Positions 627 to 64,000 of a stretch of 64,000 bases of DNA are shown here, one piece after another (position 1 is the first letter of the stretch; every line of letters starts with the position of its first letter). Position numbers and translations under genes: made by a program. This DNA is from Planoprotostelium fungivorum (lineage: Eukaryota; Evosea; Variosea; Cavosteliida; Cavosteliaceae): positions 1-64,000 of the forward strand of contig MDYQ01000176.1 of the NCBI GenBank assembly GCA_003024175.1, in the 5' to 3' direction. Under the pieces are notes generated by a model, which was not told the DNA's origin, searched no databases, and was given only the letters and a program-made list of their open reading frames with translations.

Positions 627-1703
627 GGCTTCGAAATGAGAGTAGAGCCACACTTACCTCTCGGAGGTATCGGGCCGATGCTGCTCCGGATGAAACGCCT
701 AAAACGAGCGGGTGACGTGAAAACAGTCAAAAATACGCAGTTGTCATGACGAATCGGCCACACCTTCACCCTATCCATAGGAGGTTGGATGCGTCGAGAT
801 TTCACTTTCACGCGCGGGTTCCATGAACCAGGGATAACGAAACGGGCCGACACCTCACGAGCTTGCATTTAATCTGTAGGGGATGGGCGTGTGAGGACAC
901 AATATTCCCCCGATAATCAATTTGACCGTGTACTCTGGCTCTCTATGTGTGGTAACTTATCGCATTTTGACAAAAGCTGACGGTTTGGTTTCAGCCTATG
1001 TATATATGCATTTCATAGGTCGTTGACTTCCAAACGCCCAGCTCGTGGGTCGATCGTTCTTCAATCGGTGCTGGAAGACGTTCCTGTATGGACCAGCCTA
1101 GGAACGTTCTCCCTCTCGCTGGGGTGCGAAATGATCTGCTGTTTTAATTTAACCCTCCACGGCGGATCGGAGCTATCATACCACGGCCCGGAATCTTTCA
1201 AAGAACGTTGCACGGGGGAGTGGGGGACGTTCTAAGGGTAGGATCGACAACGCGAGAGATTGTGATCATCTCAGAGATCATCACAAGGGTTTCTTCACAG
1301 AGCGAGGGTGCTGAACACCGGGAAATGTCCGAATCTTTTCTTTTCCTCTGACCGGCGTGGTGCTTGCAAACATGGACCAGCCCCACGTGAAGGTGAGGCC
1401 ATAACCTTTCAGGAATATGAGGTATCACGGTGAATTCAACCAGAAATATTTCACGATGACGTGATTGTGACGATGAAGCACCGCAGGATGTTATAGGATG
1501 ACCCGCAGATCTCGACCAGCCGTTAAGACACTCAGGCGCAGATGTGGTAAGTGAATTTAGAAATCACTCAAGACTATCGGATCTTACACCCGAGTCTCTG
1601 TGATCGTCGTTGTCGGCGTCGTCCCTTTCATTCTGGTACAACTATAAAGAAGAGTGAAATTTAACAACTTGACTTCATCGGAAAGATCACGATTTACTAT
1701 AAG
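627..1703. other. Stretch without a supported gene
   Basis: About 1.1 kb separates the membrane protein start from the decayed paralogue. Only short, low-quality open frames are present, with no recognisable motif. The part next to 626 is presumably 5' UTR and promoter of the minus-strand gene. Confidence 0.5.
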
Positions 1704-12004: not shown

Positions 12005-12591
12005 GTTTTTTCGATGCGTGACGCGGTGATGATCTGTGTTGGTGTGAAGATGTTCTCGGCACCCGGTGGCAGTTTTTCCGTGGTTGACCCGGAAGAGGAG
12101 CTCTAAACCTTGAACCTCGCGCGGTGTGGATGAGACAGCTGCTTCATGAGTTTGTCTTTGCAAGAACTCATCGGAGGCCTATAATAAATATCGAAATTGT
12201 GATTTATTCGTGTGCCCACGCATCTGATATGTTCATTATAATTCGACACACAAACGAATGGAGGCGTGTGATCCTGCGAGGGCGATGTCTTCATCAGTTG
12301 AGAGCGACGTACGACGTAGAGTCGCACAAATACAAGAGGCGAGCTTCTGAAGGAGGCAATGGACGTTGTTGACGATGAGATAGAACTTGGTAGAATTGCA
12401 GAGACGACTGATGGTAGAACGTCTGATGAGGAGAGGGATAGGTGATACACATCTCGAAGTGTGAAAACATCGTACTGACGCTCACTAGAGGACGACGTTT
12501 TGGACGTGAGATATGAGTTGGATCAGATAAGTCGATACGTAGGTACATCTGATCGACTCTCACCAATATTCAATCCACCACAGGGCAACAC
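12005..12591. promoter_or_regulatory. Divergent intergenic region between HSDL2-like and homeobox genes
   Basis: About 590 bp lies between two divergent start codons and must hold both promoters. I see no recognisable ORF or RNA gene in it, and no motif I can name. Confidence 0.4.
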
Positions 12592-13117
12592 ATGAAGAAC
12601 CAAGTCACAACAGAACCACCATCATGTGTCCATTCAAAAGACCGTGAGACGACCTCACGGCCCGTTATAGAGCCGACCGCACCTTCCAGCGTCGATCATC
12701 AACCAACCAAGCCACCACCAGCCAGCGTCCGATCAACTCCCAAAATTCTCAACTACGATCGAAAAGTTGCGAGGTTCTTCACCGAAGACCAGCGACAACA
12801 TCTTCAGAGAGAATACAACAAAAACCCATCTTGGAAGGATGATGATTATCCTCGCTTTGAGTCACCTGCAGATTCAGAATTGGTTCAAACATCATCAAGT
12901 CCACCATCCACAACCCCAGGCCAGATCGAGATTGACGGACCATCAGTTCCAACAACTGTGCATCGCCCACCATCGCGATGGAGGGAATCGTATCCCAGAG
13001 GCTGAGATCGAATCTGTGGCCAAGATGTTAGATTTAGAATGGGCGAGGGTGTACAATTGGTCGAACAATCATAAGAAATCGTGTCATTGTCTTAAGACAG
13101 GAATAAAAGATGGATGA
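12592..13117 (+). CDS. Double homeodomain protein, reading frame disrupted in the first homeodomain
   Basis: The ATG at 12592 opens a Pro/Thr-rich leader, then the first helix of a homeodomain (RKVARFFTEDQRQHLQREYN). The third-helix signature (LQIQNWFKHHQ) lies in a different frame about 60 bases later. No GT lies between them, so no intron explains the switch; one base is gained or lost near 12855, or the assembly is wrong. The spacing between helix 1 and WF is about six residues short of a normal homeodomain, so helix 2 is also shortened. In the second frame a second, complete-looking homeodomain follows: RSRLTDHQFQQL, then NRIPEAEIESVAKMLDLEW and VYNWSNNHKK. The last motif is an unusual recognition helix (WSNNHK rather than WFQNRR). 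The stop is at 13117. It could be a decaying gene. Confidence 0.6.
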
Positions 13118-15247: not shown

Positions 15248-15880
15248 TATCAATCGTGTAGATAAAGACTGTATAGCATTTGTAAGCGTCTCGCTCGTGT
15301 TCTTTCGCATCACACGGAGCGTCTGATCTCAGCTGAAATGGACGAGACGACAAGAGAATCACCCCGAGTCTGACCAACACTGGATATTGATGATCCAGGT
15401 GACGACTGTAAGCTCCTCGAACGGGTGACGCTCTTCAGCGCGGTGCATCGCTATACATGCAGGTGACAACAAGTAAGAGCAAAAAAGGGTGCAATGTTTC
15501 CACCAATCTAGCTTTAGTCTCATGATTGAAGTTGTCTGGGTTGTTGTGTTGCCCACTCCACGGCCCCTAGGGGTGTCGAATTAGAGCGGACAGGGGAAAC
15601 ATTGCACCCCGATCACTTCAGCGAATGGTGAGGGTATGTACCGTTTAAAACGGCTCGAGACGAATATTATGGTCGGTGGCAGTGATGACGGGTGACGATC
15701 GGTAATGACTTCACCGAACGAGTTTGGAACGGAATGATGTGACAGCACCATCATCATTGTCTGTAGAGAACATATATGAGGGATACAAAGTGGAAAAAGT
15801 GTAATCAGACAATGCGACCACGACTTCATCCTGAATCACGACTGGTAATGACGTGGGCTCATCTTCGAGCAAAAAGGTGT
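15248..15880. other. Stretch without a supported gene
   Basis: About 630 bp with only short open frames and no recognisable motif on either strand. Confidence 0.45.
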
Positions 15881-15950
15881 TCCCTCACTGGGAGTCGAAC
15901 CCGGGGCTCAAGAGTGAGAGTCTTGGATGTTACCGCTACACCATAAGGGA
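15881..15950 (-). tRNA. tRNA-Glu (anticodon CTC)
   Basis: The minus strand folds as a 70-nt cloverleaf. The acceptor stem pairs TCCCTTA with TGAGGGA (one G-U type pair). The D arm contains TGGTGTAGCGGTAACATC, and the anticodon stem CAAGA/TCTTG closes the loop CTCTCAC with anticodon CTC. The T loop is GGGTTCGACTCCC, which also carries the internal B box. There is no intron and CCA is not encoded, as usual for eukaryotes. One T-stem position is mismatched. It lies 60 bp beyond the stop of the GPS receptor gene. Confidence 0.92.
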
Positions 15951-23065: not shown

Positions 23066-26000
23066 TTAAGCCGAAGAATAGACTTGCACTCTATCCGGAC
23101 CACCACAAGGCTCGCTCTTGTTTCCTGCACATCCCATTGAGCACCCCGCCGCGACTGGATCTGCCCCGGCCGCCGCGGCCACCGGCTCATCAAACGATCC
23201 GTAGCATTCCATCGCGTATTCCATACCACAAAACTTGTAGCCGGCCGCAGCGCAAGCGTCGAGACAGGTGGTCACCGTCATCGTCTGTCCGTTCACGGCC
23301 ACGTTGTTCGGTAGAGTTCGACTGTTTGTTCGATCGAAGAGGCAGTTGTAGAAGGTCCACTGGCCGTAGTGGCTTCTGACGGTGAAGGGAGGCACGCTGG
23401 CGTCACGATAGACGGACAATCGGTTGCCCGCGCCACACTTTAGAGAGGGGTCGCCGCTGCAGGCCATGTTGCAGTCGATGGGCGAGGCCTGGCTGGGAGG
23501 CTGGCTCCTGCCACACCAACACTCTTGAGCGTATTCGGTGCCAGAGAAAGAGTAGCCGAGTTGGGAGCAAGAGGTGGAGCAGAGGGAGGGGGTGTTACTC
23601 GAGTTGGCGTAAGCTTGGTAGGGGAGGGGGCGGTCTCCGTTGTCGTAGTAACATCCGAGGGAGGATACGCTGGGGGTGGTGGAGGCTGGGGGGGATGTAG
23701 AGCTGGTGCTGCTAGTGCTGCTAGTGGTGGTAGTGCTGCTGGTAGTGCTGCTGGTAGTGCTGCTGGTAGTGCTGCTCGTAGTACTGCTCGTAGTACTGCT
23801 TGTGGTGCTACTGGTACTGCTGCTGGTGCTGCTGGTGCTACTGGTAGTACTACTGATGGGAGAAGACGTCGTAGACGATATCGTACCGTTCCCCTTGACG
23901 TAAACAGTCAGCCTGCCTCCTGCACCACACGTCGTCCATGGGTTGTTCGGACACTTCATGTTACAGCTCGCCTCCTCCGCCTTCACCAACGCTGCATAGT
24001 CCTGCGCCGTACCACAGTAACACTCCGCACCGTATTCCATACCGGCCACGCCGTATCCCGCCCTCTCGCACAGCAGAGTGCAAGCGGCGGCGTCGTTCGT
24101 GTTGCCTCCCGGGGCCGTGTAAGACAGAGCTCTCCTTCCGTTGGCCTCGTTGTAACATGCATCGTAAACCCATCTACCAACGGTGGGTGTCTGCTTGCCG
24201 TAACGTTCGGCGTTGTAGAAGACAGATCCAACGGCTGAAGGGGTGAGAAGGGTGGTAGAGAAAATCGAGTGAAATCTCACCGGGTGCTCCACAGATCTGC
24301 CCACCGTTCCCAGCGCAGGCTTGGTTGCAGCGCGCCTCCGGTATGTTACCGGTAGGTAACACTTGACCACACCAGCACTCTCTGCCGTACTGTGTGGCCG
24401 CCACAGAATAAAACTGATTAAAACACGTGTTCAGACAGACACCGTCGTCCATCGTGTCGGCGGAGTAGACGTTCTGCAGTTTCCAGCCCGGAGAATTTCC
24501 CGCCGAAAAACACCCGATGTAACGGTATCGGGGGGTTACGCCGTCGCTTCCCAGGGGGCCCACGGTGGGAGATACGATGGTACCGTTGGCAACGAAGACT
24601 GTTCCTCTGAACGTGTCGGAGTTTCCGTTGAACGTCCAAGTCATTTGAGACGAGTAAGATGGTACGTTGACCTGAGATATCGGTGCGGTGAAGTAGATGA
24701 GGCTAGTGACAGCCTGCCCGTACGTAACTTGCGTACCCTCCCCGATATCCCCGATATTCTGAGGGTAGACGATGCTGGTGGGAAAAGATTTCGAGCGGGA
24801 GATGATGAGAGTCGAGGGACCGTAATTACGTATGGAGAAAGTACGGCTGATGGAGGTACCACAGGTCACGTGACCAAAGTCCATGAAGGTAGAATTGATG
24901 AAAGTACCGTCTGATATCTGCACTTGCAATACTTCCCTGGGCGGTTGGGCTGATGTACCGGTGAGGAGTAAGGTGGCAATGTTTCCGTTGGTGTAGATCG
25001 TTACGTAACAAGCGTAACTACCGTCTCGTTGGGGGTTGAAATTGAATTGGACTCCCTGGGAAGCTCCACCGGGAAGCGTGGAGTAGATTGGGGGGAGGTA
25101 GAGAGTGAAGGGAGAGCAATCGTTAGTGGATGGGCCGTTGAAAGAGGCATTCGACATGGTGTAGCCGGTGATGTTGAGCGTCTGATGATCTTCATCAGTT
25201 TATGTGATGATGATCGAGGGACGAACGATCGTTGTGATGAGATGAAGTGGATGAAGTGATGATGATTCTGGTCGTGATGATGCCGATCGCGATGATGCTG
25301 ATCGCGATGATGATCGTGAAACACTTCACCTGCAGTCCCAAATTCTTAAAGGTAGAAGAAGAAGTCACTCCATTCATCGTATCAACCGATCCCGTGATCA
25401 ACCCTCCAAAGTTGATACCGGCAGGCAAAAGCTGCAGGAGAGGTTTCCTTGAAATTCCGTTTCCCCTTACGTTGATCATGACGGTGGAAGAAAAAGTCTG
25501 AGGCTGCCCGGACAGTGTAAGAGTGATGGCTGATGCCGTAGAACCAATCTTGGAAGGATGCCACGTCACGTTGAAGCGGAAGGATGGAGAATCAGCCGTG
25601 AGGGGTACGGTGGGTACGTACGTACCGTCCACGGAGAAATCGGAATTACCCGACGTAACCGAGGTGATGGTAACGGGCACGATGGCGGAGCACGTGACTT
25701 GTAGGATGGAGAGAGACTCAGAAGAGATTTGGTTACCAAAGTCGTTGGAGGTAGGATCACAGTTGAGCGCCAAGTTAGTCGGGGAGCCGTAAGCTACGAT
25801 GCGGCCGTCTGAACCGGCGGTGTAGACCTTTTGAACCGTCAGCATCTTCCTTCCGATCATGATGATGATCGTGACAATCATGATGATGATCGTGATCGCG
25901 ATGTGTGATCGAGATCATCAAGAGATCTCACCCTTCCATCACCGAACGCCGGCCTCTGAAACTTTCCATTTCCGATCGCCGAGAAGAAGAGCGGCGTCAT

Positions 26001-41316: not shown

Positions 41317-44300
41317 TCAATGTGCATCATCATTCACGTAGTGTTCACCGTTATAGAATGCTTGGGCAGAAGCTTCCTCTTCTTCTGCAGGCATCTCTGG
41401 TGACAAGACGTCGTACAATTCTGTCATCTTCTTGTGGATATCTCTGAATGTGGGTCTGTACTTTGCATCGTAGCTCCAGCACCTGCGATGCGTTGGCTCT
41501 CCACTCGTCACATTTCCTCTCACCCTTCTACAGTGACGAAGAACTCTTCAGGACATCTGATCGGACGACTCAACGTCTTTCCCTCCTTCACGACGTAATG
41601 AATCACGTCCTGGTTGGTAGACAACTCCCAATATGGATCTGTGGAATCATCAACCTGCATCATGACGTTTCTGATGATGAAAGACGATCGATGATGGTGA
41701 TGATGCGATCGAGATGATTGTGATGACGACACTCACTCTGCCCGAACGAAAATATCTCCCTGAAAACTCTTTAGAAACTCTTCCTTCACCACAATCTCAC
41801 CAAGCCAGAACACCGAAACTCCACACGTCACTCAGTCGAGTCGTGATACCATCCGTGATGCACTCCGGTGCACACCAACGGTATGGAAGCACTTTTGTAT
41901 CTGCAGAATACTGACTGTTCTCACGGCTCATGCCAAAGTCTGAGATCTGATGATGATGTCAGGGGAGGAGAGAAGGTGAGGTTTCACTTTGACGCTCTTC
42001 GATCGGTCAACGAGGACGTTCCTGGCGGCTAAGTCTCTGTGGAGGATACCTGTTGAAATGAGAAGATGCGATGATATCGATGGAAATGGAGGATGTAGAG
42101 ATGGTCCATGTGATGAGCAGACGATGATACGTGGATGTGTGGAATGGTCATCACCCTTCGCTTGCAGATAGATCATTCCCTTCACGACGTCGAAAGACAT
42201 CTTGATGAGATCGTTGTCGTTCAATTCCCTCTTGTGGGTTCGGAGGTAACTGTAAACTTTTAATTTTCGATTTTCACTCCATCTCACTGGTCCAAGCTGC
42301 CCTCGTCTACGAATTCGAGTACCATCAGGAAGCGGTCGTTGTGCATTGTAACTCCTTCCATTCGTCATCACCAGGATCATGGCCACGAAGAGATAGATCC
42401 TCACCGAGTAAGCGTACGATATTGGGATGATTGAGACGCCTGAGGAGAGATATCTCCTCTTTCCACTTGGTATCCTCTCCGTTTGGGCTATCGTTCTACA
42501 ACACCGTGTGAACATTCATTCTGCATTTTACACTACCTTGACACCCTTCAGGGCCACAACGGTCTCCTGCCACAGTCCCTTGTATACTTCACCGAAATTC
42601 CCCGAGCCAATGATGCCCTTGACCTAATCTTTGTCGACCGAAGCTCCGTCGACACCGCTCACCTGTACGTCGTCCAGCATGAGGTCGGATATGTCCAATC
42701 TCTGCATCTCGTATTCTGATTCTCTCTTCAACTTTCTCCTGTACTCGTTTCTCTTGATGACTACCACGATGACGGCCGTGAGGATGATGAGCGATAGCAG
42801 ACCGATCACGACTCCGATGATGATCTTGTTCTTCGAATTCGCATTGTCTTCTGGTAGGATGGGAATGCATGCGATGCTTCCGTCTGTGAGGGGTACGTCA
42901 GAAGTCGTCCGCCTCGATCGATCTCACTCAAGGTCTGGGATCGGTACTGATCATTACAGTGAACGAGAGAGAGAGAAGAGACGTCGGTAGATAACGTTGC
43001 GTTCAGGGAGAGGTAGATGTTGTCCACTGGAGAGAAACTAGAGCGATTGAGTCTGAATGAGAAAGAAAAGTTGAATGTGATCACCTCGTGCGCTCGACGT
43101 TCAACGATCCAGATTTCACGTAGATGGCTGATCCAGTCTGACTGGCAGCGTCATCTAAAAACGTGCTGTCTGACAGGGACAGACCTGTGACATCGATGTC
43201 ATCCTCTCTATTTTCATGGGAGATGTTCACCTCCCGAGGCAGTTATGGCACCACCGGTACCTGCTGAATTCTGCTGGAAGTTACCATTGCGTATAGAAGG
43301 TGGATTCATCGTTGCCCTTGCAGCAGAGGGATACCACTCGCTGTACAACGCTCCTCCGTCCAATGCATTGTTGTATGAGAACGTACAACTATCGATGATG
43401 ACGTCATCACCATCGGCTAGTTTTCGTGAATAGGAAAACGGAAGATATTTCACCGACATTCTATATATAGACCGCCTCCCATCTTGCCGGCAGAATTGCC
43501 ATTCAGGATGTTGTTACGTAAGATTACGCCTCTACGTGACGCCGACCTTGTGATGTAGATGGACCCCCCAGATTGTTTCGCAGAATTTCTAAAGAATCAG
43601 AGACGTATGGGACAGACGATTATCACCTCAAGAACGAACTGTACTGTATGTAGCTTGCTTCCATGGAAATACCACCGAGGTGAATGATCGTTCCGTTGTC
43701 GTTTCCAATGTTGTCATTCGCCGTGATGGCATACACCATCAATCGGAACTGTCCAGTAGTCGACACGGCCGACGATATCTGTAGACAATCATCTCAAAGA
43801 CTACATACCTGTTTCACACTCACGTTGTTGTTTGAGAAATTCTCTCTGGCGATCGAGATGTCGAAAAGTCCCGCGAATCTCACGAGCGGTCCTCCACATA
43901 CATTGTTCTCGAAAACGTTATCTTGAGAAGAGACGGAACTCATTCCACTCGAATTGTAGACGATCATTCCCAGAGGAAGATGATGATTACGGAACGAACT
44001 GTTGGTCAAGTCCAGCGTGTACTGTCCCATGATCAATCGATATCTCGGCTGAATGGACGTCTCACGGGAAGGTCAGAGGCGAGACTGATCAGACCTCCAT
44101 CGTATATCGCGCTGTTATCCGTGCAATCGATTCCACTGATGATGACGTTCTCTGCTTTTGAAGCGGTCAATACAGCTCCAATACCAGCTGTGTGACCGTG
44201 AAACTCGGTCTCTGTCTCCACATCAGCACGGAGCGTCGGATGTTGCCATCACCCGTCAGTGTCAAATTTGTCCCTTGGAATGAGATGGCGCCTCCTTGCT

Positions 44301-47206
44301 GAGCGGCAGAATTTCCGTGAAATCTCGATCCATTGATCGTGACGCTCAATTTTGCTGAAGGAGACTCTAATCCGATGCGACTTTCTGTCGAGGCATAAAT
44401 GGCCCCTCCCTTTGTAAATGCAAAATTTGAGATGAACGTGCAGTCGTTGATGGTGGCTACAACCATCGTTGGATCTGTATCACCCTTTGTAGTGGGAGAT
44501 AGCAGACGTATCGCTCCTCCGTTACCGCCAGAATTTCCTTGGAAGAGACAGTTATCCACCGTAACATTACCACTTGCGGTAGACAGACTACCTGTCTCTG
44601 TTAGATGTTTCACATCATGTGTCTTCACCTCCGTTTCCGTGTATGTTATCAGAGAAAGAAGAAGAAGATATGTGGAACGAGGCTGCCGATTTGATGTAGA
44701 CAGTCCCACTCCCATCAGCATAAGAGGAGGAGAAGTGACTATCGGTAACGAACACGTCTGCATCTGATGCCGAAATGTATACGGCGGAGCCTATCATGTC
44801 GTGAGATCAAGTCTACTGCACCGGGAAAGTACCTGTCGTAGAATAACAATTGGTGACGTTGACTCTGTGCATCGATATGGAACGACCGGTGGACAGAGAG
44901 AGACCTGCAGATTTTAGTTTTCGATCAAACGAGACGTCATCGACTCCACCTGAACTTCCCACCGAGGAATCCACCAGCGCATCTTCTATGGTGATGTCAC
45001 TGATTTCACTTGCCTCCTGTCAAGATTCAGTATACTTTCTGTTCTTGCCATGTATACGTACGTCCAAATAGATACCTCCGTTGACTGTGTGGTACATACG
45101 AATAGACGTGATGGTCAGATAGGCCGCTTGCCCATAAGCTTCGATACCATACCCTGTCGAGGAATTGACGGCGAAATCTTCGATGTAGATGGATTCCCAC
45201 GTCCCAAACAGAGACAGGCCGGATGATACGTTGGTACAGCTGATGTTCTGTATAATCAACTGATACGTGTCATCGAGATTTCATTCAGATTCCTCACCGA
45301 ATTAGCAGTCACTTGCTCCATCAAGAGGACGGGTATGTCGTACTGGGACGAACCGTACGCTTCTACGTGACGTATGATGACATCACTGTGTTTACCACGT
45401 ATGGCCACGACGCCGTCTGTGGTCAACGTGGAGTTGTGTAGATCCGCTCGCAGGTTTTCGATCAAGATATGGCTGACCTGACTGTTCGGATCAAAGACGA
45501 TGGCGACTGTGTTGAATCAACGATCGATATGTCTCATCGTACTCATTGTCTTGGAATACGTTGTTTTGTAGCCAAATATTGTGGACGTACATGTTCGATA
45601 TGGTGACGTACTCCGCTCTACCCACGACATTTAACATGTTACCAGTGGTTTGTGTTTCATAAATCGTTACGTTCGTCACGTTGATGTAATTCAAGTTTCC
45701 CGTGATATACAGAAACAGACTGGGAAGATCGAGGGGGTCGATCGTTGTGAAGGCACTCGCCGTGACATCTGAATCAATTCATCAGGTCATCATCGTAAAA
45801 TGTTCAGATGACATAGACTCGATGATCAAAACTTCACTTGAAACGGTTAGATTGCCAGACCCTACGATGACAAAGAGGGCCTCTCCACGTGTAGCCGTTA
45901 CATTTGAAATTTGAATGTCCGAACCGATCTCGGTGTAGAGGAAGGTACCGTTCCATCCATCGGCCGTTATACCTTCGAATACGATGCTGGTGTGCGGTGC
46001 AGCATTTTTAACCTTCTTGATGTGGATGACTGAAGGGTAAACTGATGTGAAGATGAGACGATGGAGGTGCGCAGATTATGGATGAATGAAAACGCTCGCC
46101 TTCGTTGATATTAGACAGAAGCAGGTTATCAGTGAAAGTGGTGTTATAGAGGTTGATGAGGGTGATACTTGGGTCCGAGATGAGAAATAGTGGGGTTTGT
46201 GCTGTGAAATTTTTCACAATGCAGTCTACCATGGATAGACGTTTCGCAGAAGGCAGAGTCGTTGGGAGTGGTTCGACGGATAACGCCTGACTGTTTCCAG
46301 TGAAATTACAGCGCGAGATATCGATGTCGCCAGATCTTCCCCCGAATTGTATGGCGTACGATCCTTCCTTGATCACGTCAGAGATCTCACATGATGGACT
46401 GGATCACCTGGTCGGAGAACGTGAATTGAGAATCTCTCATCGCCACGTTTCCATTGCTCCATACGGATAAAAAGTCACCCGCGGTTACATTCCAAGAGTT
46501 GATGTGGATGTCGATCTATCATTCGATTAGATCATCACTATGATGGAAGGAAGATGTACTGTTCCATAGGTTTGTATGACAGGCACATTCGGGATTGTGG
46601 TGTTGACGTTGACTTCTACATCATCTCCCCAAAATGAGCACGGGGTTTTGCAGGTCAAATTGAAAGCTGTGAATGAGGGACCTGATAGAGTGACGCTGGT
46701 GAAGAGGATCAGTGTGAGGTCGAACGACGAGACGAGTTACTTTCGAAGGTATAGGGAGGTGTTGGTGAAGCGGAAGAATGTCGTTGCGTCTTCTGACGGT
46801 TGGAGGGTAACGGATGATAGATTGAAAGAGTCCAAGGGGGGGAAAGACAAACCTTCCATCTGTCATTATGCAATCTTCCGATTTCGATTACCTCCTCCTT
46901 TCATGATGGTCGTTGAAGAGTCTTGACCTTCAAAAGTGATAGAGCGAGTCAATCCGTTGGACGGTATAATGAAGTCGAGTTGATACGTTCCACTTTCCAG
47001 GAGAAACACGAGATTGTCTTCGAAACCGAACGTCTGATTGAAGACTGAAGCCAGTTACGCGAGAAGACACTACACCTCCCACCTTGTGCGATGTTCGTTG
47101 AATTCACCGAGTATGAGTCAGCCTCCACTGGGATGAGAGGAACCAATAAGAGGATACACAAGATCCCAATGAAGGGACCAGCTGGACCCTCCTTGTCCGG
47201 ACCCAT
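41317..47206 (-). CDS. Receptor tyrosine-kinase-like protein with a parallel beta-helix ectodomain
   Basis: The start is MGPDKEGPAGPFIGILCILLLVPLIP (a signal peptide) at 47206. The roughly 1,300-residue ectodomain is built of short beta-helix rungs. The N-terminal part has repeated NVT/NIS strands, and nearer the membrane are repeats with GGAI/GGAL and FxxN: NSAAQQGGAISFQG, NSGGNGGAIRLL, FAFTKGGAIYAS, NNALDGGALYSE. This is the pattern of polymorphic outer-membrane-protein repeats. A membrane helix (IGLLSLIILTAVIVVVIK) leads to a complete kinase: IIGSGNFGEVYKGLW, VVALKGVK, LNHPNIVRLLG, catalytic loop HRDLAARNVLV (the tyrosine-kinase form), SDFGMSR, YRWCAPE, SDVWSFGVLAWEIFSFGQ and CWSYDAKYRPTF. 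All catalytic residues are present, in contrast to the GPS receptor. It is heavily intron-split, with more than 20 short introns. Confidence 0.85.
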
Positions 47207-48472: not shown

Positions 48473-49233
48473 TGAGATCGTTTTGTGGATTCGCTGACGA
48501 TGTCAATTGATGACGCGATCGATGCGAATCATTTGTTTGAATGATTTGAAGAAGATTTTGTGGCAGGTAGAAAGAGATAGATGCGTTGTCTCATGATCGA
48601 TGTAAAAAGGTTTCTGTCCAAGTGATTCGTGGTGCAACATCAAATACCGTTGCATTTCCTTCGCAATATGATATCCATGTTTCTATACGTATAGATATGA
48701 TCAAATACGATGCTCAGTTGTGGTGGCAAGAAATGATGCGTCTGATTACTTATTGTTTTGTGGTTGTAGAGCTCAAAGCGCGCGCAAAAATTTTCATTTT
48801 TCAAAAAGGTAGCGAGCGCGCGCATCACGCTCCCTCAGCCGTCTGGTCCCTCTTCCTTGCACCTCGAATCGCCTCGGACCAAGGTATGAGTAAGAGGTAT
48901 GCCTATATATGTCCTTATATTCTCCCACCTTCGATCCTCTTCTTCCATTTTTCATCGACTGTCCCTCTTTAGACTCCTGTCCATATCCTATCGATAGGTA
49001 AGACCCTTTGGTTCCTTCTCTTCTCTCCTTATTTCGAATTAAATGCATCTATCATATCGATTATCATGGGTTACCATGTGGTCACACTGACCTTTCAAAG
49101 TGTCTATGACCTCTTTCTAACGATACCGCAGGTGTTTCCAAGCCGTTTTAAAGGCGGAGGGTTGTTATTCGGAGCCCACAATTTTTCGCGGTCAACTTAA
49201 CGGTCACCTGACACCGCAGGCACCCCAGGAAGC
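48473..49233. other. Intergenic region; holds promoters of the epimerase and U2 genes
   Basis: About 760 bp between the divergent epimerase start and the U2 RNA 5' end. No ORF of quality and no named snRNA promoter element that I can be sure of. Confidence 0.4.
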
Positions 49234-49500
49234 ATCTTCTCGGCTTTTTAAAGCTTAGATCAAGGTAGGGTCGCGATTTCTCTTCACCACATCACATCAT
49301 CATCACCCATCAGCATTTCTGACTCGAAAACAGTGTAGTATCTGTTCTTATCAGTTTAGTCGACTGATAGCCCTGGGTACTCCAGGGCATCCGACTAAAT
49401 TAATTTTTCTCACGGGTGAGAGGATCAACACCGGAGCTTGCGAAGGTGCCTCTTACACGGATGAATTCAGCATTGCACTGAAGCTGACTTTCGTCCACCG
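49234..49500 (+). ncRNA. U2 spliceosomal snRNA, interrupted by a 69-nt GT-AG intron-like segment
   Basis: U2 pairs with the intron branch site. The 5' end carries TTCTCGGCTTT and GCTTAGATCAAG (stem I region). The next conserved block, TGTAGTATCTGTTCTTATCA, starts only at 49334. Removing 49265-49333 joins ATCAAG to TGTAGTA, recreating the near-universal GATCAAGTGTAGTATCTGTT, which includes the GTAGTA branch-site recognition core. Downstream, stem IIa (TATCAG/CTGATA) and stem IIb (CCCTGG GTACT CCAGGG) form perfectly. The Sm site is AATTTTT, and a small hairpin CTCAC/GTGAG follows it. GGAGCTTGC matches animal U2, and the last stem-loop contains ATTGCA. Spliced length would be about 198 nt, normal for U2. 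The 5' and 3' ends are estimates. Confidence 0.9.
49265..49333 (+). other. Putative mRNA-type intron inside the U2 snRNA gene
   Basis: It begins GTAGGG and ends AAACAG. A TCTGAC near 49317 could act as branch site, about 13 nt before the AG. Length is 69 nt, slightly longer than the 40-50 nt introns of neighbouring genes. Its removal restores the U2 core without a single base left over. Confidence 0.8.
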
Positions 49501-50611
49501 TTCAAATAATCAAAAGACACGAAAAAGTTCGATAATCGTAGAAAAACGATATAACGCACAAACAACGATGAAAAATACTCGTGGCAGCAGAGGGTGAGTG
49601 ATGATCGAGATGAAGTGATCGGTGACAGATGAGCTCATTAGAAGAGGTGAGAGATGGACAGTCTGATCTATGAAGATTGTGAGAGTCATGATGGGTGGAT
49701 TTGCATGATCGGATGCTTTCATCTGTGATCGATGAACATCCGAGAGAATCTGATGTTGGGTTCAATACACGACGAGGAAATGATTACAATAAATTCTCGT
49801 GTATCGATCTTTGCTCTGTCTGCACATCACGTTGTGTGACTCTTGCCGATCGTGAGATGATCATCCATCTGTTCGAGACTGCACTGGTCGTCACGTCGAT
49901 GTTTGATGTGGAGTGATGAATCAAATCTCGACTGGATGCATGAATTGGGGAGGGTCGACGAGCACATCTTTGTCGTCGTCTCCATCTCCTTTAGATGTGC
50001 GAGACGCGATCGCGATAGTGACGATGATGACAAACGAGACATTCACGTGGTCGCTGGAGTTTGACAGGATTAGACACCAATGTCGATCAACACTGATGAC
50101 AAACATTCATCACATGTGATTTCTAAACGGTGATCGGGGATAAGATGAAGGATGATGATTTCCGTCTTTCAGAGAATGAAGCTTCATCCATGTAGTCAAG
50201 CTATCGTATGAGTGATTCTCCCACTCATGCGGGTCAATGTAAACCTCTCTGTCCACTCTCCATATGTCGTCGATCACTTCATCTCGATCGTTCAATCGCT
50301 TAAGACGAATATGGAGTGAGGAGCAATGACGCACGATGGCGGCGGTCGTAGCTGGTGAACTTTCTCTTCTTCACCTCACGATCGTCAACCGCCTCTCATC
50401 TGGATCAGCTCGGCAAACAGCTAGCAACGCAAGAGAAGAGACGTGATCGTGAGCACTCACCACCACGACGAGAAACCAAGAATCAAATTAGATTCTAAAG
50501 CATTATTACTCAGTCCCTCGGATAGATATCTAGGCTCAACGGAATGCTTGTGCCTGTTCCTGGGAATCTTCCAAAGCGTAAATCAGGTAAGAGATTAAGT
50601 TAAAAGGTGAC
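49501..50611. other. Gene-poor stretch
   Basis: Several short open frames. The better ones are a 67-residue plus ORF at about 49916-50119 (contains DAIAIVTMMTNETFTWSLEF) and a minus-strand exon-like frame at 50110-50385. None has a recognisable domain. Confidence 0.35.
50110..50385 (-). CDS. Possible exon of an unrecognised protein
   Basis: The minus frame reads CSSLHIRLKRLNDRDEVIDD, then WRVDREVYIDPHEWENHSY and TTWMKLHSLKDG, with amphipathic, protein-like composition. It has no ATG of its own at a sensible position. Either it is a terminal exon of a gene whose other exons I cannot find, or it is chance. Confidence 0.3.
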
Positions 50612-59916: not shown

Positions 59917-61291
59917 TCATTCTATATGAATCTTGGAGTTGTCCCTCGTCACAACTCCACTAGCTCTACACTGACCTCCAAAGACAACGTTTGGGCTCCC
60001 GTTCTTCAACCAGCAACTGCCACAGGTATCGAATGCCCACTGTCAACATCATTCCAATTCATTCTACGCCTATGTCTCACCGCGTTGTATTTTGTCTCTA
60101 CCACACACATCTTCTGACAATCTTCCGTACTATTCGCTTGCACTGGCTGATCAGGTAGATCGTAACCCGGTCTGTCGCTCAACTCGATCCCGTCTCTTGT
60201 TTCAGTCAAGACGGGCCAGCCGTATATGAAATTGAGATAGTTCCACCCAAAGTGGATCATAGATTCTCCGTAGCCGATGTCGGTGTTCATGTACTGATAG
60301 TAGAGGACTGCGCCGTGGACATCGTCCTCCAAGACGGACGCTCCTCCTTCCATGATGTCAGTTGACCCATCACATGTGATGGTGATGAGATGACGATCAC
60401 CTGGTGCGTAGATGTTGTCGAAACTGGCTAATACCATCTTCCCTGGATGTTCCATACACGTCTGCCCCTCTTCGTTGTAATAAGGTCCTATCGCAGATTC
60501 CGCCCTGCAGACTTGAACTCTGTACTCTTCCTTGAGTTCACTGGGTACCCTGGAAAGCAGTCACCGCTGCTGTAGAAGAGATAGTAATATCCCCCCCGGT
60601 TGTATAGGAAGGGACCCTCGGTGCGATTCGGATGTTGATGATCTGATGTAAATGGAATGTCAATGGTCAACTGCACGGCTTGAGCTTTCGGGGCGACGGA
60701 TAATGGAGGATTGGCCATCTTGATGCTGAAGATGCCGCAACCGTATGAGCCCTAGGTAAGATAGTAGTCACCGCCATCGACGAGGAGATTAGGATCGATG
60801 CGGTTCCAGGTGGGATAGTTCTCGATCACTCCGATGGATCCGCGATCGATGAAATCAGTTCCGTCTAAACCAGTGTTCGATGAGGCCACACCCATGTTCG
60901 ATCGGTACCACGTTCGTTTCTGATCGTCCGTGTAGATGACAAAGACGGTGTAGTAATAATATTAAGTGCCTCCGATGAGATGGACTTCAGGTGTCCACAA
61001 TTTGACCTGTCCATAGCTGGGGAGACCAGCTGACGGGCACTTCCCATCAAACATGGCGCCGTGAGCGGTCCAGGGGCCATCGAGGGTGGGTGATGTTGCA
61101 ATTTGACATCCGTATAGATCTTTACCAGTCGTATCTATGGGATGAGTGTAGCGATAATAGGTGCCGTTGTTGGATTTCAAGATGTTGGTATCTTGAACAT
61201 TCGAACAGCTGCCGGTGCATGATCTTGGTTTGGGGTATCCTTGTGCGAGGACAAAGGTGGTGAGAAAGAGAAGAAGGAGCTTCCCTGGCAT
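59917..61291 (-). CDS. Secreted glycoside hydrolase family 43 enzyme with a C-terminal PAN-like domain
   Basis: Signal peptide MPGKLLLLFLTTFVLAQGYP from 61291. The five-bladed GH43 fold is visible through SCSNVQDTNILKSNNGTYYR (catalytic-base Asp region), KLWTPEVHLIGGTYYYYT, WNRIDPNLLVDGGDYYL and NRTEGPFLYNRGGYYYLFYS with the catalytic Glu. GH43 enzymes cut arabinan, xylan and similar plant or wall polysaccharides. After the blade ending GWNYLNF and YGWPVL, the C-terminus carries SDRPGYDLPDQPVQ, STEDCQKMCVV and FDTCGSCWLKNG with QCRASG. This Cys-spaced module resembles a PAN/Apple carbohydrate- or protein-binding domain. The stop is at 59917. Introns are few. It is divergent from the sensor kinase gene at 61879. 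Confidence 0.85.
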
Positions 61292-61878
61292 GTTGTGTCT
61301 TGTCGGCCGATCGGTTTTGTGTCGAATCTACAAATTCACGTTTATAAAAGTTTCATGAGCAGCGGACCACTTTCTTTCCAATCTATCCAATTACGCCGAT
61401 CTCGGTCCTCATCTGAGTGTGGTGTGGTCATCGTCGCACCATCATAGGACGCTGCTTATAGGCCGCCGTCAGCGTGGTTGAGAACACGATATCGATAAGT
61501 TCGTGGAGCCGAGTAGTGTCCTTCTGCGTACAATCTCCAATCTATTTTCGATATTGATCGAATTCTCTGCGTGGGGACCATTCATTGCTGTCAAAATGAA
61601 GCGAGATTTCGTCATAATCTCAAATATTGAGCTGGAGATGTCCGAAACTTTCCCTTTCACGAAAACTGTGCCTCTATACCATGCAGGCTTGACTCATCAG
61701 TTGTTGTTGACCTCACAGAATGTCTATAATAGTTGGTGGATGCTCTTCATTTGGGCAGAGAACGTGGTCGCGGATAATTAACTCCGATACGCGCGTTTTT
61801 TCAAGTTCACAAAAGCTCCGGTTATTAGGGAGAAATTCCAGATACGAACCTACAAGTCACGCACAGTCTCTCACCCGT
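61292..61878. promoter_or_regulatory. Divergent region between GH43 and sensor kinase genes
   Basis: About 590 bp between divergent starts. A plus ORF at 61503-61781 exists but shows no domain; I treat it as chance. Confidence 0.35.
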
Positions 61879-64000
61879 ATGGGCAGCATGAACATACCCA
61901 TATGTCTACAACATGAATATCACGGTATAGAAGGTCTACAGCTCCGGTTGGAGACAGACCGAGCCAGGAATGGTGGCGATGAACCCATCGTCTACCGCGG
62001 TGTGGATTCAGAAGGCACACGATACATAGGGCATTTATACACCAATAAGAAGATAGCCCGACGGTTTTACAAAGAATTAGAGGTGTGCAAGATGTTAGAC
62101 GGGCCATATATCGCTCGAATGGTCAGTGTCAAAGAAAATCCATTCGGTTTGATCTCTGTCAAACGTGATGAAGATCTACCAACGCTAGAGGAGTCAATAC
62201 ATCATCACGTATGTTCCTCTCAATTTGATGTTCAGCATTGACATTGTAAAGGGACCACTCTCTCTGGATCATATATACAACTTTGCCATCAACAGCTGTC
62301 GAGCTCTTGGAAGGATTCACGACGCTGGGATCATTCTTCGATCTCTGAGTCCAGCCAACATCTTATTCTGCAGAAACACGGGACGTCTATTACTGACGGG
62401 CTTGGGAGAGGCAGCTCTATTACAGAAACAACACCGTTCAACCGTATCACCTCAAGCAGGAACGAAGCATTGTCTTTGGTCTTCACCCGAACAAACCGGT
62501 CGAATGGTGATAGACGTTCTTCCCATTCGATCTCTGACGTTCTCATTGCAGAATCGCGATGTCGATTATCGAACTGATTACTATTCTTTGGGCGCCGTCT
62601 TATACTGGCTCCTGTGTGGGAGACCACCCTTCACAATCTCAGAGTGTGGTGATGCACTCAAAGTCATGTACAATCACACGTCGATACCCCCAATACCACC
62701 GAGGTGAGAGAAAATTCACGAGAAAATTCACGAGAGATTCCACGAAAGATTCTGACCCGAGCAGCGCTCGTGACGTACGAGTACCCCAACCCATCTCGCA
62801 GATCGTCTTAAAACTGCTCCAAAAATCTGCGGACGATCGGTATCAGAGCACTCACGGCATCATCCAAGACATACTGTACGTACAGGGTCACCCCAACGAG
62901 ATCGATTTCACGCCGGGAGGGCAGGATGTAGACAGCATTTTTCGCATCCATCAGAAATTATACGGAAGAGAAGAACAGACGGAAAGATTGATGAAAGCAT
63001 ACGATGACGTAGCCGAGGGCCGTCTGGCCTGTCAGCTCCTCTTCGTTCGAGGTGAGATTTGGCGGGAGATTCAAATTTTGAATTTCGACAGGCTACTCGG
63101 GCATCGGAAAGACGTCACTCATCCGCGAGCTGCACCGACCGATCATACGTAACCACGGGCTGTTTACGTCGGGTAAAATCGATCAATTTACCCGGGGTAT
63201 TCCCTATGGTTCCATCGTACAGTGTTTCCAACGGCTAGTCAAATCCATTCTAACCGAGCCGGAACATCGAGTCGAAAAATGGCGGGAAACTCTGCAGAAG
63301 GCCGTGGGCGAGCGAGGGCAGGTGGTCATCGATGTCATACCCGAAGGTGAGATGTCTCACGTCATTTTTTCTGAAATTTCTCAGTCAGTCTGATCATCGG
63401 ACCTCAACCAGCCGTTCCAGTCATGGGTTCTCAGGAAACAGAAGAAAGATTCAAGCAGGTGAAACTTTCGACGGAAATCATTTTAATCTTCTCAGGTCAT
63501 GCTCGAATTCGTGGGAGCATTCGCGACAGCGGAGCATCCTCTCGTCATCTTCTTAGACGACCTCCAGGTGATTTTATTTCGTTTTATTCTGCGAGCTGAC
63601 GCGTTGTAGTGGGCTGATCTACCCACCATGGGTCTGCTCAAGGCCCTGTGTTCCTCTTCGATCACTCACTTGCTCCTCATCGGTGAGAAATCTCGAGGAA
63701 ATTTTGCGTGTTATGCTGCCACTCGAAATCCCGCGTGGATTTGAATTGAACGATTTAGGTGCCTATCGTGATAACGAAGTGGATAATGCTCATCCTCTAT
63801 CTATGATGCTGAAGACACTGACTAACGTTCGAATCGAAAACATTATACTATCTCCACTATCCATCCACCACACCTGTCAGTTGATCGCAGACTCGACGAA
63901 ATCTAGCGTAGAATCCGTTCGAGGCCTGGGAGACATCGTGCAGAAGAAGACGATGGTGAGTCGGAAGATCGTTTTGGCTCGTTGTAATACTCCAACAGGG
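61879..64000 (+). CDS. Degenerate Ser/Thr kinase plus AAA-ATPase protein, N-terminal part (probably a hybrid histidine kinase)
   Basis: The ATG at 61879 gives MGSMNIPICLQHEYHGIEGL. The first 270 residues are a kinase fold: YRGVDSEGTRYIGHLY, KELEVCKMLDGPYIARM, SLDHIYNFAINSCRALGRIH, then a catalytic loop changed to IILRSLSPANILF (no HRD Asp), LTGLGEA for DFG, and YSLGAVLYWLLCGRPPF. An ATPase of the AAA_16 type follows: LYGREEQTERLMKAY, Walker A GYSGIGKTSLIREL, FTSGKIDQF, VMLEFVGAFATAEHPLVIFL with Walker B FLDDLQWADL, then LLLIGAYRDNEV and a helical run. This order, kinase then AAA then (outside the window) GAF and histidine kinase, is typical of fungal group X and bacterial hybrid sensor kinases. 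The histidine kinase itself is not seen, so that part is inference. The open frame continues past 64000. Confidence 0.8.

Follow-up and report, generated by a model that had tools for sequence, protein, structure and literature searches.

Introns are rare in the genes of spliceosomal RNAs. That they sit next to catalytic or substrate-contacting nucleotides has served as an argument for their ability to spread by reverse splicing into any RNA present at the active site. An mRNA-type intron was described in the U2 snRNA gene of Rhodotorula hasegawae (Takahashi et al., 1993, as cited in PMC2586383). mRNA-type introns are also reported for the U6 snRNA of fission yeast and other fungi (PMC10484740 and PMC5832005). 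In the fungal U3 snoRNA, spliceosomal introns are clustered in the 5' functional domain (PMC5832005). The titles and abstract openings that we searched on snRNA introns held no further intron in a U2 gene, a scope too narrow to establish absence from print.

We analysed a window of 64 kb, by which we mean the whole stretch of 64,000 nucleotides of DNA, and identified in it a split U2 gene. As judged from its sequence, this is very probably a functional-looking U2 snRNA gene that carries an ordinary major-class (U2-dependent) spliceosomal intron.

Genome context

The Pfam domains in the window include Tos1, WSC, HAM1_N, Chlam_PMP repeats near a kinase, and a homeodomain, and this content is eukaryotic. 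It would fit an amoebozoan, conceivably one like Protostelium, and would also allow a fungus or another protist. On the - strand, the Chlam_PMP repeats (44170-44790) precede a tyrosine/serine-threonine kinase domain (41931-42515), and the two are possibly parts of one receptor kinase gene (~41800-44790). The homeodomain (12671-13114, Pfam 1.5e-5) follows a second homeodomain-like segment recognised by eye, the whole region spanning 12553-13114 (+). A secreted-looking protein is encoded at 60965-61327 (-) and in the frame beyond; a stop directly follows HLIGGT, and the frame stays open past it. We take the protein, by eye, to resemble glycoside hydrolase family 43, and 60965-61327 has no Pfam match. 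A kinase-like segment at 61711-63149 (+) looks by eye like the N-terminal region of the large hybrid histidine kinases that fungi and amoebae possess, and no Pfam match was found within 61711-62238. The only tRNA found by ARAGORN in the window is a tRNA-Glu (CTC) at 15879-15950 (-).

Identity and limits of the U2 gene

On the unspliced DNA, Rfam cmscan reports a U2 (RF00004) match at 49302-49503 (+), with 84.1 bits against a gathering score of 46, the first ~30 model positions sitting on insert sequence because the DNA was matched unspliced. The locus is thus a member of RF00004 by covariance-model score before any sequence is removed. The alignment contains several non-standard pairs and puts the 5' end of the RNA at 49302, inside the insert. 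The stretch 49234-49264 agrees best, among all places on either strand of the window, with the first 31 nt of the Rfam U2 consensus. It scores 18, compared with 15 for the next separate place and a maximum of 14 among 2000 letter-shuffled 100-nt contexts. With 49265-49333 removed, the locus has the structural makeup of RF00004: stem I, the GAUCAAGUGUAGUA core, stems IIa, IIb and IIc, the Sm site, and stems III and IV. We identified the following features:

49234 to ~49500 (+): U2 gene, split and complete-looking, from the Rfam U2 alignment and the exon 1 consensus match
49234-49264 (+): exon 1, 31 nt, ATCTTCTCGGCTTTTTAAAGCTTAGATCAAG, with the 5' end, stem I and GAUCAAG; from the consensus match, 5' end from the alignment
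49238-49259 (+): stem I, TCTCGGCTT-TTTA-AAGCTTAGA, 8 standard pairs and one mismatch
49265-49333 (+): intron, 69 nt, GTAGGG...CTGACTCGAAAACAG (ending AAACAG), the best excision, with an ATC-rich body
49265-49270 (+): 5' splice site AAG/GTAGGG, U1 duplex -9.7 kcal/mol
49319-49323 (+): branch site CTGAC, a 5/5 match to CTRAC, with the putative branch A at 49322 and then 11 nt to the intron end
49331-49333 (+): 3' splice site CAG, from the sequence
49334-49500 (+): exon 2, 3' end approximate, from the Rfam U2 alignment
49335-49340 (+): branch-point recognition sequence GUAGUA, mature nt 33-38, from the sequence and a core identical in L003, L004 and L006/L007
49349-49369 (+): stem-loop IIa, TATCAG/CTGATA, 6/6 pairs
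49370-49388 (+): stem-loop IIb, GCCCTGG/CCAGGGC, 7/7 pairs
49355-49399 (+): stem IIc, arms TTTAGTCG (49355-49362) and CGACTAAA (49392-49399), 8/8 pairs, also found as an inverted repeat
49402-49409 (+): Sm-site-like AATTTTTC, by pattern, aligned to AUUUUU of the Rfam consensus
49416-49456 (+): stem III with GGAGCTTGC; GTGAGAGG/CCTCTTAC 8/8 and CACC/GGTG 4/4, G-U taken as a pair
49459-49496 (+): stem IV with an ATTGCA loop, as folded; outer 7/7 pairs standard, inner part paired in the fold

In U2, GUAGUA is the sequence that recognises the branch site, and stem IIc is the helix that competes with IIa.

A second U2 core is lacking from the 64-kb window: Rfam detects a single U2, and GTGTAGTATCTGTT has eight further matches, each with 3 mismatches. 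A scan for sigma-type (bacterial) promoters and terminators, which is not designed for eukaryotes, found neither at the locus. Two acceptor-like stretches, CTAACGATACCGCAG and CTGACACCGCAG, lie upstream of U2 at 49117-49131 and 49208-49219 (+). Taken with the next base they have ACCGCAGG in common, and 14 bases separate the second from the start of U2. The pair may serve as promoter elements; alternatively, they may be genuine 3' splice sites that belong to an upstream exon. CTRAY..YAG patterns of the kind seen upstream of U2 number 36 on the + strand of the 64 kb.

U2 genes in other contigs

An exact 21-mer of the U2 core had no match in a collection of viral contigs. An exact 18-mer found 7 stretches from 6 contigs among genome contigs and 1 in the viral contigs. 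Rfam recognised U2 in four of the eight loci (L003, L004, L006 and L007); L006 and L007 overlap on one contig, so that these amount to three genes. All three are uninterrupted at the site of the intron. No relative with the same U2 intron was found in these collections; being prokaryotic and viral, they offer little power to detect one.

The four loci hold eukaryotic snRNA genes, yet their records bear bacterial labels, an apparent case of contamination in public assemblies. Nothing connects these sequences with the host of the window. Besides the U2 found in all four, U1 is present in L003 and L006, and L003 also has 5S rRNA and histone 3' stem-loops. In L006, at ~767-784 (-), there is a short U2 piece (TAAGATCAAGTGTAGTATCTGTTCTTATC) that lacks the rest of the gene and is uncalled by Rfam; it is like a truncated pseudogene.

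Intron boundaries and splicing signals

We scored as U2 every GT..AG excision of 35-250 nt that starts between 49180 and 49479 (n = 108), using a profile from only three U2 genes (L003, L004, and L007 plus L006). Removal of 49265-49333 ranks first with 56.4 bits, ahead of the runner-up at 48.4 and the unspliced DNA at 36.3. The core restored by this removal, GATCAAGTGTAGTATCTGTTCTTATCAG, is identical in all three reference U2 genes. Thus, the junction that the first-pass annotation had placed at 49264/49334 is correct, and so is its claim that taking out 69 nt restores the U2 core. The intron falls between nt 31 and 32 of mature U2, within a conserved functional segment, and by this sequence property it belongs to the class of mRNA-type snRNA introns. 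The same annotation had put the insertion at the branch-recognition segment; the intron stands one base upstream of GUAGUA and not within it.

The insert has the marks of a major-class intron, namely GT..AG ends and a CTRAY-like branch site near the acceptor. When the letters of the insert were shuffled 300,000 times, GT..AG ends alone arose in 1,046 cases, and these ends together with CTRAC and 8-12 nt after its A in 21 (two registers allowed). The content of ATC/TCA/CAT triplets is 0.254, and only 1.3% of 69-mers sampled from the window (both strands) are as rich. The structure of the insert is no greater than that of its shuffles (z 0.05), as expected for an mRNA-type intron. The evidence from intron signals is independent of the U2-profile argument and points in the same direction. 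With the cmscan match and the excision scores, it bears out the earlier description of a U2 gene interrupted by an intron with mRNA-type signals.

A self-splicing intron of group I or II, a type with a large conserved catalytic fold, was also considered and rejected, given the 69-nt length, the same z of 0.05, and no Rfam match on the insert besides the overlapping U2 model.

Comparison with local introns

Local introns were located by joining coding segments of the kinesin, TKL-like kinase, aquaporin, carnitine acyltransferase, WSC and HAM1-like genes, with gene identities taken from Pfam and PDB matches. The kinase, named PK_Tyr_Ser-Thr in Pfam, is one that we take to be TKL-like. We tried 16 junctions and retained 13, leaving out kinA and AQPb, which yielded no join, and HHKa, which was ambiguous. 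The two readings of HHKa begin GTCAAT and GTATGT, so that a non-GTGA intron is possible there. Also left out as ambiguous were kin0 (split into kinB and kinC), CrAT2 and HHK2, and no join was obtained for MCMlike, Epi and WSC3. Looser anchors, whose results stand outside the counts, gave three joins for kinA, the best kinesin fit being a 74-nt intron with the donor GTGATC and CTGAC 12 nt before its end. They gave one unconvincing GTGCAA join for AQPb and left HHKa ambiguous.

The 13 local introns are 41-263 nt long, and 11 of them match the CTRAC branch site at 4 or all 5 positions, with 10-13 nt after the A. On the sense strand, their ATC/TCA/CAT content has a length-weighted mean of 0.21 (range 0-0.38), compared with 0.074 in nine coding stretches. 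Introns such as 25182-25329 (-) and 41947-41987 (-) illustrate this enrichment, which is ~3x the coding level on average and almost nil in some.

In its donor the insert departs from its neighbours. All 13 local introns begin GTGA, whereas the U2 insert begins GTAGGG; the uniformity is partly one of choice, because kinB, TKLa, WSC2 and HAM1b had more than one join and the GTGAG/GTGAA type was taken. The nine introns with a single join all begin GTGA, and for several of them wider anchors gave other joins that fit worse in our judgement. Despite GTAGGG, the predicted U1 duplex of the insert (-9.7 kcal/mol) is inside the range of the 13 local introns (-2.4 to -10.5 kcal/mol). The atypical donor may reflect the intron's own history. 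No donor intron or second copy of the insert was found in the 64-kb window, where matches are weak, reach at most 31 nt, and are mostly ATC-rich runs.

Structure and constraint

The other landmarks of U2 (IIa, IIb, III, IV, GGAGCTTGC and ATTGCA) are all present. We compared stem pairs with those of the retrieved genes using stem arms set by hand, because the stem II region is misplaced when the four U2 rows are aligned with MAFFT. Stem I of L003 and L006/L007 has 7 standard pairs, and its single mismatch coincides with the one here. Its innermost pair, C-G in those genes, is U-A here, and one further U-A pair is added. In the Rfam consensus the arms of stem IIc are TTTAATAT and ATATTAAA; three pairs differ from these on both sides in the present gene and all 8 are kept. 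In each of the three reference genes (L003, L004 and L006/L007), one of the 8 pairs of this stem is non-standard. Both exons thus look to be under constraint, with stem I and stem IIc staying paired through changes on both sides, as far as a hand comparison of four rows can tell. These changes suggest selection on the joined U2 RNA, since a decaying copy is not expected to keep its stems and Sm-like site.

Predicted expression and feedback

We predict that the U2 gene is transcribed as a capped precursor, from which existing U2-containing spliceosomes would excise the 69-nt intron by the normal lariat pathway; the joined RNA would be working U2. Unspliced U2 should be inactive because the U6-pairing segment (...GAUCAAG) is held 69 nt from the branch-pairing GUAGUA. 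Production of U2 would then be autocatalytic, with inherited U2 snRNPs making new U2. The circular dependency noted in the earlier annotation is supported as a consequence that a U2 gene with an mRNA-type intron would have. A natural self-dependent loop would follow, in which cells that lose U2 would be unable to remake it.

Alternative explanations

It is unlikely that the locus is an inactive copy of U2 carrying an insertion, with an uninterrupted U2 gene elsewhere doing the work. Genes for snRNAs are often multicopy, and U3 genes, which are snRNA-like, tend to several copies (PMC5832005); the donor GTAGGG, atypical among local introns, would also fit such a copy. However, the pairing kept in both exons through both-sided changes and the core shared with three other U2 genes argue against it, as does an insert whose termini, branch site and composition are those of a local intron. 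A retrocopy of mature U2 RNA, moreover, would be without the intron.

It is quite improbable that the insert arrived as a DNA element, whether a transposon or introner-like, and that its splicing is incidental or does not occur. Introner-type DNA elements are known to give rise to introns. Against an origin of this kind here, the 64-kb window holds no second copy, and there is no target-site duplication beyond AG (exon 1 ends CAAG and the insert ACAG; exon 2 starts TGTAG and the insert GTAGG). The absence of a longer duplication does not fit a typical DNA element, and neither does it prove reverse splicing.

Removal of the insert by the minor spliceosome, as a U12-type intron, is attractive because it would break the circular dependency, and the branch segment ends TGAC, yet we give this reading almost no weight. 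U12-type introns have the donor consensus RTATCCTT and the branch-site consensus TCCTTRAC. GTAGGGTC agrees with the donor consensus at 4/8 positions (2-4/8 for the 13 local introns), and the insert's best branch match is 5/8 (5-6 for the local introns). Neither donor nor branch site therefore places the insert in the U12 class, although minor introns are known in amoebozoans (PMC10639083).

There is next to no chance that splicing is absent and that the RNA begins with a new 5' end near 49302, where cmscan sets U2 model position 1, since this start yields several non-standard stem I pairs and loses GAUCAAG, whereas a proper 5' end with stem I and GAUCAAG is found at 49234-49264.

Origin of the intron and comparison with known snRNA introns

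For the major-class intron in a functional-looking U2 gene, an origin by reverse splicing is plausible, because this process would place introns beside catalytic or substrate-contacting snRNA nucleotides. An origin of the U6 introns by reverse splicing has been argued on the same positional ground (PMC10484740). A fuller reading is possible but doubtful. It holds that this is the only U2 gene here, or that every U2 gene here is alike, in a non-fungal lineage; that U2 splices its own precursor in a closed loop; and that the intron was reverse-spliced at an active-site position, on the other side of GUAGUA from the yeast case. If this were true, spliceosomal reverse splicing would have left snRNA introns as repeated traces throughout eukaryotes.

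The split U2 gene is a further member, apparently with a different position, of a rare class that has published precedent. As a second U2 case at an apparently different position (and in another lineage too, should the host be something other than a fungus), it makes of a single oddity a pattern that a survey of snRNA genes could test. Fungal U3 resembles the present U2 as a small structured RNA with spliceosomal introns, but its introns carry no circular dependency because U3 is not part of the spliceosome. The fungal U6 introns, like the U2 intron, are mRNA-type, interrupt a catalytic spliceosomal RNA near its catalytic nucleotides, and have been proposed to come from reverse splicing (PMC10484740). 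They would share the same circular dependency, with the difference that U6 is a Pol III transcript whereas U2 is normally transcribed by Pol II. The gene of R. hasegawae, like the present one, is a U2 snRNA gene with an mRNA-type intron. The intron of that basidiomycete yeast reportedly lies in the conserved 5' domain, immediately 3' of the branch-recognition segment, whereas the one described here stands one base upstream of it.
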